Origin: Thermoanaerobaculia bacterium
GTDB lineage: Bacteria > Acidobacteriota > Thermoanaerobaculia > Multivoradales > Multivoraceae
Direction: 5' to 3'
DNA length: 64,000 nt
NCBI GenBank assembly: GCA_022826745.1
Contig: JAJDUI010000012.1
Coordinates: 1 to 64,000, forward strand
Part shown: positions 647 through 8,708 of the stretch, piece after piece
Layout of the letters: each line of letters starts with the position of its first letter
Position numbering within the stretch: the first letter of the stretch is position 1
Made by a program: the position numbers and the translations under genes
The notes under the pieces: model-generated
What the model saw: only the letters and a program-made list of their open reading frames with translations
What the model was told of the DNA's origin: nothing
Database searches by the model: none

Positions 647-1738
647 TCAGAACAGCTCCTCCTGAAACGGGCGGAGCGACAGCGTTCCCTGTTGCCGCTC
701 CATCCGCCCCTGTTTCTTCAAGTCCGCCTCGACGTCTCGGAGATGCTTCCATCTCCAGATCATGGAACGCAACTCTTCCTTGAGAGTATCCACTGGGACC
801 GGCCCTGACTGGAGCCTCTGCAGCAGCCAGTCGCGCAGCACTGTGATATCTGGCTTCGGTTCGACAAGGAAGAGCTGGTCCGGATTATCCGAGCGCCGGA
901 CGTTCATCCGGCCGCCCGGACAGATTTGCCAAACACACTCCTTCATGAGGTCCCGCCCGTCATCGTGATTCGTGAGGTGGAGCAGAAAGAAACGCACTGC
1001 GTCGCCTCCCGAGATCATCCGTATGTGGGTCCACCATTTCGCACCCAGACCATCAGCCAAGAGACGAGCAGCTGAATCGGCTCTCTCGACCATCGTCTCC
1101 CCACGAATGCTCCGCCAAGCGTCGGAACCGAAAAGCAGGTCGAGATTCTCAGCCTGACCGTGTCCCGGCCCTGGCTCCTGGCGCATCGCCATGTCGAGTT
1201 CACGCCACATCACGTTGACAAACAGCTCCACGCGCTCGAAAGTCATCAACTCCGCGAGCAAGTCCCCAGGGAGCCCAAAGCCGTAGGGGTCCACGAACAC
1301 GAAGGCAGGAGCGATTTGCCTCCCGTCCGACTTGAGTGTGTCGACAAGATCCCGAAGTACCGTGAATGCGTCCTCGCAGCCCGTCTGGACGAGTATCCGG
1401 TCGGGCAGAGGCTCTAGCTCGGCCACTTGTTCCCTGAGGGCCGCTTCGTTTCGTTCGTCCTTCTCGAGAAAGACGAAGCGAAACTCCGACCGCTCCAAGA
1501 GGTCCGGCAACGCCGTATGGCGAAGCAGAGTCCGCAATGCGACAACGGGCGAACCAGGATTGTCGCCTGCATAGCTCCCGCGGCCCGCGTGGGTGTCAAA
1601 GTAGACAACTCGACCGGCCCAGTAACCGAGCTTCGGGTACCAGCCCTCCAGGTACCGCCGGATCAGTTCGTGCTTGACCTGCTGGAAGCGACCATAGGTC
1701 TCCCAGTGCTGCGGCTGCGAATCGCTGAACCTGTTCAC
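647..1738 (-). CDS. tcmP: Three-Cys-motif partner protein TcmP
   Basis: The 363-residue product matches the TcmP family, proteins of unknown activity usually encoded beside a DUF5131 (Gp37/Gp68) protein, as here. Visible motifs resemble a class I SAM-dependent methyltransferase: DTHAGRGSY at residues 48-56 (motif I-like), FLEKD at 90-94 (acidic end of strand 2) and VDPYGFG at 149-155 (motif IV-like, compare DPPY or the DPFG of Trm1). The C-terminal third (from about residue 290) looks helical and charged and may bind nucleic acid. The start is GTG. A GAGGAG sequence immediately after the DUF5131 stop, 12 nt upstream of the GTG, is the probable ribosome site, so the two genes form one operon (16-nt gap). 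The family assignment is firm; methyltransferase activity is inference. Confidence 0.85.
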   Translation of the reverse strand: MNRFSDSQPQHWETYGRFQQVKHELIRRYLEGWYPKLGYWAGRVVYFDTHAGRGSYAGDNPGSPVVALRTLLRHTALPDLLERSEFRFVFLEKDERNEAALREQVAELEPLPDRILVQTGCEDAFTVLRDLVDTLKSDGRQIAPAFVFVDPYGFGLPGDLLAELMTFERVELFVNVMWRELDMAMRQEPGPGHGQAENLDLLFGSDAWRSIRGETMVERADSAARLLADGLGAKWWTHIRMISGGDAVRFFLLHLTNHDDGRDLMKECVWQICPGGRMNVRRSDNPDQLFLVEPKPDITVLRDWLLQRLQSGPVPVDTLKEELRSMIWRWKHLRDVEADLKKQGRMERQQGTLSLRPFQEELF

Positions 1739-2610: not shown

Positions 2611-5600
2611 ATGCGTCCCGCCTTGGAGTTCTCGCCAGCCTCTGCTGAAGGAAGCCCTGCCCCTCTCATGACAACGCACGACGTTGCGGGCACCGTGGCG
2701 GCCAGTTCGGCCGATGTGCGCCAAACACTGGTCGAGGCACTCGAGCTCGACCTCATCGGCCCCGGTGAAGGGCATGAGCTCGCCGAGGAGCGGCTCCTCA
2801 TCAACGAACCGCCATCGAAGTGGTACCTCACTGGCTTCCTCATGCCGGCCGACACACCGCCCGAGCTGCGGGAGAGCGACGACGAGGAGGACGGAGACGA
2901 CCTCGACGAGGTGCCCGACCGCGCTGGCCTGTCCGAGGAGTCGACAGAAGACCGAAAGGCCGCCAAGAAGGCGTTCTTCCCATCGTCCATGGGCCTGAGC
3001 TTCCTGGCGGTCGAGTGCCAGCTCTCGATCACGGTCCGGTGGGGGGACTACGAGAAGGGCGCGATAGACGAATCCGGCACCAACGGCTTGTGCTGGCGGC
3101 GCACGCCCCGGCAGGAGACCGTCGAGTTCGATCTCTGTCGCGGAATAGGTCCTTCCGTGCACGACGTCCCCTCCTCCGGCGGCCTGCAACTCCATGTCGA
3201 GCACAGGCTCCTTACCGGCCTCAGGCCCATTCCAGCGAACTCGTTCGCGGTCACCGTGTTTCTCGTGAACAACCGGTCGCCAGCGAAGTCGCTCGATGAG
3301 AGAGAGGCCACCTATGCCTTCCAGGCACAGATAGAAGTACGTAGTAACCACCCGTTTCTGCCGCGACCGGATCTCCGACAAGCCTTGAACGACGTGTGGG
3401 ACGAGCAGGTGGCGGCGCTGCACTACTCCGACGCACCCCGGTACGCAACCGGCCACAACGTCTCAGCCCAGTGGGACGTGAAGGACGACGGCAGTTGCTA
3501 TGTCGTCAAGAGTGCCTGGATACCCGCTGCCGAAGTCGAGAAGACGGAGACGTTCGAGCCCGAGGGCGTTGACCTCTCCATGGAACGACTGGGTGCGCTG
3601 ACCTCAGCCAATCAAGTCAACGATGTGCTCAGGCCCCTTATCGCCGCCTACCGCATGTGGATCGGTGACCGCCGGGGCGAGAGCGGCGCCATCGAGCCCG
3701 ATCACAGGGAGACCGCCGAAGTCCTGCTGGACCATGCCGAGTTCGCTGCCTTGCGAATGGAACGGGGCATCGCCGCTCTCTGTGACGATGACGAGGCCCT
3801 GGACGCCTTCCGGGTCGCCAACCGCGCCGTGGCCCAGGCGCTTCGGCGGCGGAACCCTGGGCTGTTCGACGAAGACGGGCCGAAGTGGCGTGCCTTCCAG
3901 CTCGCCTTCATCCTGCTGAACCTGGCACCACTGTCCAACCCCGAAGACCCGCATCGAGAACTCGTCGACCTGCTCTTCTTCCCGACCGGCGGCGGCAAGA
4001 CGGAGGCGTACCTCGGTCTGGCGGCTTTCGCGATCGTTCTGAGGCGGCTGCGCCACCCGGACGCCGGCGGCCGAGCTGGCGCTGGCGTGTCCGTCATCAT
4101 GCGCTACACCCTGCGCCTCCTGACTCTGGACCAACTTGCCCGGGCGGCCGGTCTGGTCTGCGCGCTCGAATTGGAACGCGATCAAGCGCCGGCCCGCTAC
4201 GGTGAGTGGCCGTTCGAGATCGGTCTCTGGGTGGGCAAGGGAGCAACCCCCAACATCCTCGGACGCAAAGGTGACGGTAGGAGCGACTCGGCCAGAGGCA
4301 AGGCAAACCGTTACAAGAGACAGCCGGAACGCGAACCGTCGCCGATTCCGCTGGAAGACTGCCCGTGGTGCGGCCAGAGTTTCAAACCGGACTCGTTTTC
4401 TCTTGAACCAAACGCGAACGAGCCCCGGAACCTGCGCGTCGTCTGCGCCAACTGGGAGTGCGAGTTCAGTCGCGACCGCGCTCTGCCGATCGTCGCGGTG
4501 GACGAACCGCTGTACCGCCGCCTCCCCTGCTTCCTGATCTCAACTGTGGACAAGTTCGCGGCGTTGCCCTGGGAGGCGCGCTCCGGCGCGCTCCTGGGTG
4601 GCGCTGACCGACACGACGGCGAGGGCTTCTACGGCGCGGCCGAACCGGGGCGAGGACAGCCCCTGCCTTCGCCCTTGCCGCCGCCGGATCTGATCATCCA
4701 GGACGAGTTGCACCTGATCTCAGGGCCACTTGGTTCGATGACCGGACTGTACGAGACCGCGATCGAGGCTCTCTCGCTCCATCACTCGAACGGGGGCCTC
4801 AAGCCGAAGATCGTCGCCTCTACTGCAACCACCCGTCAGGCGCCAGACCAGATTCACGCACTGTTCGGCCGCTCCGCCACCCGGGTTTTCCCACCTCCCG
4901 GCCCAAGTCGACGGGACTCCTTCTTCGCCCAAGCCGTGCCGGCCCAGGAGAAGTCCGCCCGCCTCTACCTGGGCATCGCGTCGCCCGGCCGGAACGCCAA
5001 GGTCATGATGCGCCGGGTGCTGCTGCCGCTCATGGCTGCCTCCCAGAAGGCCTACCGCGACGCTGGCGGCAGCACGAACAGGAACAACCCTGCGGACCCG
5101 TACATGACCGTGCTGGCTTACTTCAACAGCCTGCGCGAACTCGGAGGCGCGAGGCGCATCGTCGAGGAGGAAGTCCAGAACACTCTCCGCGGTTACGGAG
5201 CGAGGCGACGGATCGGCCAGGAACAGAGGTACTTCCGGGACCGCCACACCTACGTCGAACCACTGGAGTTGACGTCCCGCGTATCGACCGCCGATGTCGC
5301 GCGCGCACGGCGGCGGCTAGGCCAACCGTTTCACGAGAACGACAGGGTGGACTGCGCTCTGGCGACAAACATGATCTCGGTCGGCCTCGACATTCAGCGA
5401 CTGGGCCTGATGGTCGTCCTGGGCCAGCCGAAGATGAACGCCGAGTACATCCAGGCCACGAGCCGGGTCGGACGAGACGACGAACGGCCCGGCTTGGTGA
5501 TCACTCTTCTGAACATCCATAAACCGCGCGACCGCTCCTACTACGAGCGTTTCCGGCATTATCATGAGACCTTCTACCGTTCGGTCGAGGCCGGAAGCGT

Positions 5601-6066
5601 TACCCCGTTCGCAGCCAGAGCTTTGGACAGAGGCATGGCAGGTGCCTTGGTCGCCCTGGCCCGCCACGCGGAGACGCAGTTGACCCCGGTCCGGGGTCCC
5701 GAACGGCTCTCCGAAGTCCGGGCTGACTTGGAGCGACTCCTTACTCGGGTCTTCTCGGAGCGGCTTCGGAACCAACCGCTACAATCCGAAACGGAACTGG
5801 ACGAGCGGCTGCACAACATCCAGACCCGTGTCCGTGATCTCCTCGATTCGTGGCAGCGCGTCGTCACCGACTATCGGGACGTCGGCGACGAAGTGAAGTA
5901 CCAGCAGTACGAAGGGCGAGACGGCAAGTACCTGCTTCGGGAAATGCTGGACACGGACTTCGAGACCGAGCACCATCGCAAGTTCCGCGTAAACAGATCA
6001 CTTCGGGACGTCGAACCCGAGGTGAACCTGTTCATTCAGGACACCACACGCAGCGGATCTCCCTAG
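2611..6066 (+). CDS. drmA: DISARM helicase DrmA
   Basis: This is a large SF2-type helicase of 1151 residues (1132 if the ATG at 2668 is used). Motifs in order: Walker A FFPTGGGKTEAYL near residues 455-467, a four-Cys zinc-ribbon-like segment (CPWC ... CANWEC) around 585-620, a DExH-like box QDELH near 697, STATT near 735, and motif VI QATSRVGRDD near 947-956. The N-terminus (LVEALELDLIGP, PSKWYLTGFL) is typical of DrmA, the DISARM translocase that acts on phage DNA together with DrmB. The start is uncertain: ATG 2611 lacks a clear Shine-Dalgarno, while ATG 2668 has GAAGGAAG 13 nt upstream and lies just before the conserved region. drmB follows with a one-base overlap. Confidence 0.9.
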   Translation: MRPALEFSPASAEGSPAPLMTTHDVAGTVAASSADVRQTLVEALELDLIGPGEGHELAEERLLINEPPSKWYLTGFLMPADTPPELRESDDEEDGDDLDEVPDRAGLSEESTEDRKAAKKAFFPSSMGLSFLAVECQLSITVRWGDYEKGAIDESGTNGLCWRRTPRQETVEFDLCRGIGPSVHDVPSSGGLQLHVEHRLLTGLRPIPANSFAVTVFLVNNRSPAKSLDEREATYAFQAQIEVRSNHPFLPRPDLRQALNDVWDEQVAALHYSDAPRYATGHNVSAQWDVKDDGSCYVVKSAWIPAAEVEKTETFEPEGVDLSMERLGALTSANQVNDVLRPLIAAYRMWIGDRRGESGAIEPDHRETAEVLLDHAEFAALRMERGIAALCDDDEALDAFRVANRAVAQALRRRNPGLFDEDGPKWRAFQLAFILLNLAPLSNPEDPHRELVDLLFFPTGGGKTEAYLGLAAFAIVLRRLRHPDAGGRAGAGVSVIMRYTLRLLTLDQLARAAGLVCALELERDQAPARYGEWPFEIGLWVGKGATPNILGRKGDGRSDSARGKANRYKRQPEREPSPIPLEDCPWCGQSFKPDSFSLEPNANEPRNLRVVCANWECEFSRDRALPIVAVDEPLYRRLPCFLISTVDKFAALPWEARSGALLGGADRHDGEGFYGAAEPGRGQPLPSPLPPPDLIIQDELHLISGPLGSMTGLYETAIEALSLHHSNGGLKPKIVASTATTRQAPDQIHALFGRSATRVFPPPGPSRRDSFFAQAVPAQEKSARLYLGIASPGRNAKVMMRRVLLPLMAASQKAYRDAGGSTNRNNPADPYMTVLAYFNSLRELGGARRIVEEEVQNTLRGYGARRRIGQEQRYFRDRHTYVEPLELTSRVSTADVARARRRLGQPFHENDRVDCALATNMISVGLDIQRLGLMVVLGQPKMNAEYIQATSRVGRDDERPGLVITLLNIHKPRDRSYYERFRHYHETFYRSVEAGSVTPFAARALDRGMAGALVALARHAETQLTPVRGPERLSEVRADLERLLTRVFSERLRNQPLQSETELDERLHNIQTRVRDLLDSWQRVVTDYRDVGDEVKYQQYEGRDGKYLLREMLDTDFETEHHRKFRVNRSLRDVEPEVNLFIQDTTRSGSP

Positions 6067-7895
6067 TGGCCAAACGCAGGGCAGGGACTGGTGGCGAGGG
6101 CAGCGTCCGGCGAAGTCAGGTCATCACGACCTACGGCCCGGGCGCCCTGATCGACCTACCGCACGATTCGGCAATCGTCGGAGGTCTGGACTACTGGCCA
6201 CGGGCCAGTCACCTTGAGGCAATAGACGAGCCGAGACTCGCTGTCCGCCTGCGTGGGCTGACCGGAGGCTCGTTGCCGGCTCTGTTTGCGCCACCCCCAG
6301 CCTCAGATCGCCCCGGACGCAAGTCTCCCGGCATCACGTCGCCGCGCTTTCCCGAGTGGTTCGTCGTCCAGGAGGAAGCCCCGTCCGACGACGGACCGAA
6401 ACGAAAGAGCAGGGCTCGCCGACTGGTCCACCGCAGATCGCTCGACGACCGCCGGAGATTCAACGGCAGGCCCGTGGTCGCCACACGGTTCGTCAGAGGT
6501 TGCCCGCACGGCCACGTCGACGACATCGACTGGTACAACTTCGTCCACGAGGGCGAGTCTCCTTGCCGGGGTGAGCTTCGACTGGAAGAGCAGGGCACGG
6601 GCGGCGACCTCTCCAACCTCTTCGTCCGTTGCAGCTGTGGCGCGAGGCGAGGGATGCATGAGGCGAAGGAACTTGAGAACCGGCCGCTCGGAAACTGCTC
6701 CGGTTGTCGGCCCTGGCTCGGGCCCTACACCAAGCAGGACTGCAGCTATCCGGCCCGGCTCCTGATTCGCACGGCGACGAACGCGTGGTTCCCTCAGGTC
6801 GTCACGGTCCTCTCGTTGCCGCAGCGAGGAGCAGCCATCGATCAAGTGGTCGCTGAGCTCTGGGATGACCTGGCTATCGCTGAGGATCGCACGGGTCTTG
6901 CCTTCCTCAAGAAGAAGCCGAAGATCACGGCTGCCTTGCACGGTTTCGACGACGCCGATGTCCTGGCCGCGATCGAACGCCGCCACACCGGAGAACCCGA
7001 GGACCAGCCAGTCAAGGTTGCGGAGCTGGAAGCTCTCACGAGCGTGCCCGAAGGCTACGGCGAGGACGTGCCGGTCGATCCAGGTTTCCACGCCAGACGC
7101 ATTCCGGCAGATACGTGGCGGCAGGAAGGTGACTTTCTGGGAGACAGAATCGAGGCCGTGGTCGCGGTGCACCGGTTGCGCGAAGTCTCAGCCCTCGTCG
7201 GATTCACCCGGTTCGAAGCGCCAACTCCGGACGTCAATGGTGAGTACGACACCGATGTCGCTCGCGCTGACCTTGCCGCCGAGCCTTCCTGGTTCCCGGC
7301 GGTGGAGAATCAGGGAGAGGGGATCTTCCTGCTACTGAACAGCGACGCCGTTCTAAGCTGGTTACAGCGCCCTGAAGTCGAGAAGCGCTGCGCCGATCTG
7401 GAAGCCGGACACGAGCGCTGGGCAGAAGAGCGACGGATAAGCGCCAAGCGACCGTTTCCAGGAGGCGCCTACATCCTTCTTCACACTCTGTCTCACCTGC
7501 TCATTCAGTCGCTCGCCCTGCGGTGCGGGTATCCTGCCGCATCGATCCGGGAGCGCATCTACGCTGACGAGGCCTCGAAGCGGTTCGGGCTTCTGCTCTA
7601 CACCGCCAGCGCCGATGCCGAGGGAACGCTCGGAGGCCTCGTCCAGCAAGCGACGAGCATCACCCAACACCTGCACCAGGCCTTGCACATCGGCGGCCTG
7701 TGTTCGAACGATCCGGTCTGCGCCCATCACTCGCCCGGCCGGAGCCCGGAGAACCGTTGGCTACACGGCGCCGCGTGCCACGGCTGCACGCTCGTTGCGG
7801 AGACGTCTTGCGAGATGAGGAACGACTACCTGGATCGCGGGCTGGTTGTTCCCATTATCGGCCAGAAGGCTGGCTTCTTTGAACGGCTCGATTGA
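6066..7895 (+). CDS. drmB: DISARM protein DrmB (DUF1998)
   Basis: The 609-residue protein has the DrmB N-terminal signature SQVITTYGPGALIDLP and a C-terminal DUF1998 region (LLHTLSHLLIQSLALRCGYP, about residues 470-490). Cysteine groups suggest zinc sites: RCSC ... CSGC near 190-220, and CSNDPVC with CHGC ... C near 545-590. DrmB forms a complex with DrmA that binds and translocates DNA in characterised DISARM systems. The ORF track starts at 5850, but those 72 extra codons overlap drmA and are not family-like. I place the start at GTG 6066, sharing one base with the drmA stop (TAGTG), which implies translational coupling. Confidence 0.9.
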   Translation: MAKRRAGTGGEGSVRRSQVITTYGPGALIDLPHDSAIVGGLDYWPRASHLEAIDEPRLAVRLRGLTGGSLPALFAPPPASDRPGRKSPGITSPRFPEWFVVQEEAPSDDGPKRKSRARRLVHRRSLDDRRRFNGRPVVATRFVRGCPHGHVDDIDWYNFVHEGESPCRGELRLEEQGTGGDLSNLFVRCSCGARRGMHEAKELENRPLGNCSGCRPWLGPYTKQDCSYPARLLIRTATNAWFPQVVTVLSLPQRGAAIDQVVAELWDDLAIAEDRTGLAFLKKKPKITAALHGFDDADVLAAIERRHTGEPEDQPVKVAELEALTSVPEGYGEDVPVDPGFHARRIPADTWRQEGDFLGDRIEAVVAVHRLREVSALVGFTRFEAPTPDVNGEYDTDVARADLAAEPSWFPAVENQGEGIFLLLNSDAVLSWLQRPEVEKRCADLEAGHERWAEERRISAKRPFPGGAYILLHTLSHLLIQSLALRCGYPAASIRERIYADEASKRFGLLLYTASADAEGTLGGLVQQATSITQHLHQALHIGGLCSNDPVCAHHSPGRSPENRWLHGAACHGCTLVAETSCEMRNDYLDRGLVVPIIGQKAGFFERLD

Positions 7896-7910: not shown

Positions 7911-8708
7911 GTGCCCCACCAAGTAGTCGAGGCGCTGCTCGAGCTTCCCGCGCACCTCAGGAACTCGTTGGCCACCGCTCTGGAGACCGGCCTTCTCCGT
8001 CTCGACTCCAGCCCGACGGCCGTCCGAGCCAACTTGGCTCTACTCCCCGACCGGGAACAGGAGGTGCTCCGGATACTTGCCGAGTGGCGCCGCAGCGGCA
8101 TCCCCGAGGCTGGCGCGGCCATCTGGCTTCGGAGCCTGGACGCACTCGCGGACACGTTCACTAGGCCCGACTTCGTCTGGTCGGGACCTGAGGTGCCAGG
8201 GCTGCACGCTCGGGATACTCGACGCGTCTACGACGAGGTCATCGGAGCAGCTTCCCGCTCGATCTGGGCCTGTACTTTCGCCTTCTTCGACGGGCCCGAG
8301 GCCTTCAAGTCATTGGCGGCAAGAATGGATGCACGGCCTGACATGAGGGTCACCCTGCTCCTGAACATTGGGCGCAAGCGCGGAGACACAACCGCGGCCG
8401 ACGACCTTGTCCGGCGCTTCGCGGACCGTTTCTGGGACAGGGAATGGCCTGGACCGTCGCGCCCGAGCGTGTTCTACGACCCCCGCTCCCTGGAGCCGAG
8501 ACGCGCCGCAGGTGTTCTCCACGCCAAGGGAGCGGTGGCCGACGAGGAAGTCGCTTTCATCACTTCCGCCAACTTCACCGAAGCCGCTCTCGACCGGAAC
8601 ATCGAGATGGGCCTCCTATACCGTGACCGTCAGCTTGCTCTCACGGTGGTGAGGCACTTCCAGACACTGGTTGATCGGAAACTGCTGCTGCCGCTGCCTA
8701 TTGGCTAG
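7911..8708 (+). CDS. drmC: DISARM protein DrmC (phospholipase D-like)
   Basis: The 265-residue product carries one complete HKD motif, HAKGAVAD at residues 204-211, followed by ITSANFTEAALDRNIEMG, as in PLD-superfamily nucleases. It completes the drmABC triplet. DrmC is part of the DISARM core but is not essential for protection in the tested Bacillus system. Many PLD enzymes build one active site from two HKD motifs, so a single motif suggests dimerisation. The start is GTG, 15 nt after the drmB stop. No methyltransferase gene follows: the next gene converges after 2 nt. Confidence 0.88.
   Translation: MPHQVVEALLELPAHLRNSLATALETGLLRLDSSPTAVRANLALLPDREQEVLRILAEWRRSGIPEAGAAIWLRSLDALADTFTRPDFVWSGPEVPGLHARDTRRVYDEVIGAASRSIWACTFAFFDGPEAFKSLAARMDARPDMRVTLLLNIGRKRGDTTAADDLVRRFADRFWDREWPGPSRPSVFYDPRSLEPRRAAGVLHAKGAVADEEVAFITSANFTEAALDRNIEMGLLYRDRQLALTVVRHFQTLVDRKLLLPLPIG

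Follow-up and report, generated by a model that had tools for sequence, protein, structure and literature searches.

TcmP as a probable methyltransferase-fold partner of a radical-SAM-like DUF5131 protein in a class 1 DISARM island

The window analysed here, the first 64,000 nucleotides of contig JAJDUI010000012.1 (C2) of a Thermoanaerobaculia bacterium, carries close to its first base a tcmP gene whose product very probably has the fold of class I SAM-dependent methyltransferases. Next to it lie a gene for a DUF5131 protein and the DISARM genes drmA, drmB and drmC. The explanation that we consider best, and hold with moderate confidence, is that TcmP and DUF5131 are a methyltransferase and a radical-SAM enzyme that together modify nucleic acid, and that their genes sit in a complete class 1 DISARM island. 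The initial annotation of this DNA had also recognized methyltransferase-like motifs in TcmP, and had gone on to suggest that the protein could supply the modification enzyme missing from a DISARM core that lacks drmM. As described below, the first half of that proposal has been borne out by sequence profile, predicted fold and conservation, while the second half has lost its ground.

The tcmP gene and its conserved motifs

The tcmP gene lies at positions 647-1738 on the minus strand, starts with a GTG codon and encodes 363 amino acids, with a class I (Rossmann) methyltransferase-like domain predicted at about residues 16-272 and a wHTH-like domain at about residues 298-356 from TIGR04474, the AlphaFold2 (AF2) model and its fold matches. 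The product is a clear member of TIGR04474 (E 1.5e-43; 149.7 bits against a curated cutoff of 53), the TcmP or "three-Cys-motif partner protein" family of NCBIfam, which has no assigned function in NCBIfam or Pfam. It also matches both PDC-M30A and PDC-M41A of PADLOC and adjoins a DUF5131 gene, and it differs from these entries, for which neither library assigns a function, in its position inside a DISARM island. The sole Pfam match is a sub-threshold one to PF22560 GMT-wHTH (residues 279-345, 14.7 bits), a family that scores above its cutoff in a phage relative of TcmP. PHROGs gave no family for TcmP, and scans of viral contigs with a single protein, either the window copy or that of a Gordonia phage, returned zero relatives. 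Some phage annotators have already labelled TcmP relatives "methyltransferase".

The motifs to which the initial annotation had pointed, D48-THAGRGS-Y56, F90-LEK-D94 and V149-DPYGF-G155, are all exactly where it placed them in the translation. On the minus strand, motif I (DTHAGRGSY, residues 48-56; positions 1571-1597) is predicted to form the SAM-binding loop after strand 1, G62-S63 (1550-1555) is common to the PGSP segment of RlmJ, E92 (1463-1465) is the acidic residue at the end of strand 2, and motif IV (VDPYGFG, residues 149-155; 1274-1294) follows strand 4. How strongly are these residues conserved? Alignment A4 is unfit for counting them, as most of its viral relatives were found by patterns containing YxDxFAG and LDP[YF]. 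Because motif conservation in A4 is thus biased, the recount was made on 33 relatives obtained by whole-family HMM, tblastn or whole-protein similarity, with no use of the motifs for selection, and the counts are among the letters present at each position. In this set, D48 and G52 are each found in 31 of 32 members, E or D occupies position 92 in 31 of 31, as it does in all aligned members, and D150 is likewise invariant (31/31) wherever it is aligned; K22 and Y29 are each kept in 32 of 32. Such conservation argues that the motifs are more than chance.

Motif IV needs a separate comment. It had been likened to DPPY/DPFG, but the family has DP[Y/F]G instead of DPPY, and one part of it has DQ: position 151 is P in 24 of 31 members and Q in 7. 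With such a non-canonical or DQ motif, some members of the family may not methylate bases. The seven degenerate copies might even be taken to mean that TcmP is catalytically dead and serves the DUF5131 enzyme as a scaffold that binds SAM or nucleic acid, an idea that would suit the near-obligate pairing of the two proteins and those IMG/VR loci in which one of two TcmP copies has a motif I changed to CMCNSG. We regard it as improbable, since D48, G52, the acidic residue at 92 and D150 are retained in nearly all members and the window copy has every one of them.

Evidence for a methyltransferase fold

When a profile of 66 TcmP-family members was compared with the PDB, RlmJ was the top match (E 1.7e-10); the remaining matches were 2oo3 (1.4e-4), a protein of the Legionella type described as "catabolism of external DNA", and, weakly, a putative methylase (E 0.39). 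An hhalign comparison of the TcmP profile with E. coli RlmJ gave 96.3% probability (E 1.9e-9), and in profile-profile comparison another methyltransferase, RsmJ, reached only 3%. Since most of the earlier alignment had been gathered with patterns overlapping two of the motifs, the profile was rebuilt from the 33 members. Its match to E. coli RlmJ has an E-value of 5.2e-6, and not one of 2,000 shuffled controls scores better than E 2 with it. In the alignment of this profile to RlmJ, the paired segments are motif I, GSP, the acid of strand 2 and the DP in motif IV. A single-sequence PDB search with the window TcmP found nothing meaningful, the overall identity between RlmJ and TcmP being too low to be detected in that way. 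An hhalign match obtained from a five-sequence alignment (A1) was rejected as spurious, and RlmJ emerged only with deeper profiles.

The AF2 model (mean pLDDT 84.5) has a Rossmann domain and a C-terminal wHTH-like domain. Its strands 42-48, 84-91 and 142-149 end in motif I, the strand-2 acid and motif IV, so that the order claimed for a Rossmann methyltransferase is seen in the model as well. A fold search of the PDB with this model ranked Trm1 (3axs) first (E 2.7e-7, TM-score 0.35/0.33) and RlmJ with SAH second (E 3.8e-7, TM-score 0.44/0.58), moderate TM-scores of 0.33-0.58 in all, and these two best matches are the very comparators that had been named at the outset. The other matches listed at E <= 0.001 are methyltransferases of many kinds or likely ones. 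The profile comparison with the same two proteins was half successful: RlmJ was matched, but Trm1 is absent from the PDB profile matches, and the likeness to Trm1 is by fold only. We therefore assign the methyltransferase fold to TcmP with high confidence, and a SAM pocket is suggested by the conserved motif residues.

RlmJ is the 23S rRNA m6A2030 methyltransferase, and Trm1 is the tRNA G26 N2-methyltransferase, whose motif IV is of the DP[FY]G type as in TcmP. With RlmJ, TcmP shares the Rossmann fold and, in the same order, the DTHAGxGxY motif I, the (P)GSP segment, the strand-2 acid and the DP of motif IV. It departs from RlmJ in having DPYG in place of DPPY, a shorter insert between motifs I and II, an added C-terminal wHTH-like domain and a near-obligate radical-SAM-like partner. 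Judged by its sequence, TcmP is related to the RlmJ family without being a member of it, as the DPPY form of motif IV is missing. The C-terminal domain probably aids binding to nucleic acid.

DUF5131 as a radical-SAM-like partner

The adjoining gene, at 1755-2480 on the minus strand, belongs to PF07505 (DUF5131; 2.4e-95); its start was placed at the ATG before SIEWTDATWNP, in an ORF that opens at 2546. The match to TIGR04471 is below cutoff (3.2e-23), and Pfam Radical_SAM does not match the window copy. In alignment A5, the invariant motifs are C-x6-C-x2-C (C20, C27 and C30), GGESG and FFKQxGG. The AF2 model has a pLDDT of 92.2, and its best PDB fold match is spore photoproduct lyase, weak at E 5e-3, with further weak matches to Mmp10, MiaB, lipoyl synthase (LIAS) and others, among which other TIM barrels also occur. 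The four proteins named here are radical-SAM enzymes. DUF5131 resembles such enzymes, spore photoproduct lyase in particular, in its three-cysteine motif, its GGE motif and its best fold matches, whereas its cysteines are spaced as C-x6-C-x2-C and not as the classic C-x3-C-x2-C. In viral contigs, divergent partners of TcmP match Radical_SAM (up to 6.5e-9) together with DUF5131 below cutoff, and such partners bridge the two families. That DUF5131 is a radical-SAM-like enzyme is therefore well supported but not proven.

A mobile and near-obligate pair

Of 110 TcmP loci, 106 have a DUF5131 gene, which lies no more than 200 bp away in 105 cases. The relative orientation is variable: the two genes are co-directional in either order, or opposed. 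In three of the exceptions (L020, L119 and L131) the available sequence ends while the tcmP-like frame is still open, and in the fourth, on a Halopiger plasmid, a Pfam Radical_SAM gene lies directly upstream in the place of DUF5131. The pairing is near-obligate, and the module, found in phages, plasmids and islands, is mobile. Some loci contain more than one copy. In one relative genome (G081; L035, 8557-9671) a second DUF5131 gene with a weaker match (1.5e-26) overlaps or adjoins a TcmP-like frame about 16 kb from the first pair, and in IMG/VR contigs L074, L075, L076 and L137 two tandem TcmP genes, a long copy with the altered motif I CMCNSG and a short copy, precede a divergent radical-SAM partner.

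Neither the pair nor its link to defence is new. Literature searches found no paper on DUF5131, passing mentions only of TcmP, and no biochemistry of either. Surveys of YprA-helicase and BREX systems do not mention TcmP. PADLOC-DB, however, already lists TcmP/DUF5131-like pairs as defence candidates, PDC-M30A/B and PDC-M41A/B, with both halves of the pair included. It might then be asked whether TcmP-DUF5131 is a stand-alone anti-phage system which damages or modifies invading nucleic acid, and which is found in a DISARM island just because defence genes cluster. The Gordonia phage copy adjoins an immunity repressor, and in a list of co-regulated genes of S. meliloti, tcmP (SMa2243) stands beside the defence helicase Hna (SMa2245; PMC12445080), both of which speak for such a role. 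Yet the candidate lists rest on gene neighbourhoods, mobile elements with a cassette for epigenetic or counter-defence purposes would be expected to give the same pattern, and phage-challenge data were not found in the literature, so we consider a stand-alone defence system rather unlikely.

A DISARM island probably divided by a contig end

On the other side of DUF5131, on the plus strand, are drmA of the class 1 short form (2611-6066; NF038325, 1126.8 bits, cutoff 950), drmB (5850-7895; NF038324, 563.5 bits, cutoff 240) and drmC (7911-8708; NF038319, 175.4 bits, cutoff 133). As listed, the drmB ORF shares about 217 bases with the end of drmA (5850-6066), and its true start is probably further downstream. 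Where, then, are the remaining genes? Position 1 of the window is the end of the contig, and just 646 bases separate it from tcmP. A near relative has a closed chromosome (L002, OX638294.1), on which the genes beyond tcmP are, in order, an ASCH gene, an S8 protease, an AAA ATPase, a DrmMI-type methyltransferase (1427 aa) and DrmD. A search of the window's own genome with this DrmMI and DrmD located both at the start of another contig, C10 (1722-9332). The DrmD there has a score of 1011 bits (cutoff 610), and the methyltransferase is a match to DrmMI of PADLOC.

In a further relative (G082), acyl-CoA dehydrogenase genes border the whole island at one end and a beta-lactamase-like gene borders it at the opposite end. 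These flanking genes recur here, the acyl-CoA dehydrogenases beyond DrmD on C10 (88-91% identity) and the beta-lactamase-like gene beyond drmC in the window (89%). Because these same genes bracket the G082 island, C2 and C10 most likely each carry half of a single complete class 1 DISARM island, as judged by synteny; the contig ends themselves do not overlap. The class 1 rule of PADLOC asks for drmA, drmB, drmC, drmD and drmMI together (PMC9252829). This genome has all five, the first three on C2 and the other two on C10, and differs from the class 1 system in its division between two contigs of the assembly, in an extra tcmP-DUF5131 cassette and in a frameshift in drmMI. The last gene consists of two overlapping frames with one frameshift near C10:4592, where L002 has a single intact frame of 1427 aa, and either an error of the assembly or a true lesion may be the cause.

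Between the end of C10 and drmMI (L059, 351-1559, plus strand) are an 8xMP membrane protein gene (PF24838, 4.7e-33) and then a ThsB-like TIR protein gene (PF08937, 1e-10), a swapped defence cassette in the slot that ASCH, S8 protease and AAA genes occupy in relatives. The S8 protease and AAA ATPase, located between tcmP and drmMI in those relatives (L002, 12088-15531), resemble the anti-phage IteS/IteA (NF042956 and NF042959, below cutoffs). Beyond drmD on C10 there is a further SNF2-type helicase resembling BrxH/DrmD (L059, 10406-13327), with no close counterpart there in G082.

The "DISARM core without drmM" therefore dissolves: the methyltransferase gene was cut off by the contig end. With it falls the idea that TcmP is a self-marking DNA methyltransferase of this locus in the stead of DrmM. 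The methyltransferase fold is real, and tcmP adjoins DUF5131, itself the neighbour of drmA, but the genome contains drmMI and drmD, which synteny places in the same island between the same flanks, and we reject TcmP as a replacement for DrmM. TcmP also finds no match to DrmM in a PADLOC search, and its motif IV is DPYG, not the [DNS]PP[YFW] of DNA N6-adenine methyltransferases. Moreover, of 14 DrmA loci above cutoff in this class of genomes, 4 have TcmP next to DrmA, all in one genus (the window's own genome, G075, G081 and G082), and at least three of these four are probably one ancestral locus. The closest relative outside them (L004, 49% identity) has a DUF5131-tcmP pair and no DISARM within 9 kb on the DUF5131 side. 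TcmP is thus tied to DUF5131, not to DISARM, and no gap is left for a self-marking TcmP to fill, unless the drmMI frameshift is real and inactivating, in which case DrmMI might be inactive. Even allowing for this, such a role appears highly improbable.

Proposed function and meaning

What could a methyltransferase-fold protein do together with a radical-SAM-like enzyme? Trm5 and TYW1 act stepwise in wybutosine synthesis. TcmP, as a methyltransferase-fold protein of the RlmJ/Trm1 kind, and DUF5131 would be the two halves of a two-protein module, and by analogy stepwise modification of a nucleic-acid base seems most likely: one enzyme would methylate the base and the radical-SAM partner alter it further, or the reverse. 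In the present genome this module would be an accessory cassette inside a complete class 1 DISARM island and not a substitute for DrmM. A bolder extension, which we put forward only tentatively, is that a widespread mobile cassette of an RlmJ/Trm1-like methyltransferase and a spore-photoproduct-lyase-like radical-SAM enzyme builds an undescribed hypermodified nucleobase used in the conflict between phages and bacteria.

The TcmP-DUF5131 pair, hypothetical so far, is frequent in phages, plasmids and defence islands, and the two proteins have been named solely for adjoining each other. What is added here is a concrete enzyme assignment and a corrected premise for DISARM: the claim of a methyltransferase-less DISARM locus is an artefact of a contig end, and the likeness of TcmP to a methyltransferase and of DUF5131 to a radical-SAM enzyme gives this pair a concrete biochemical test.
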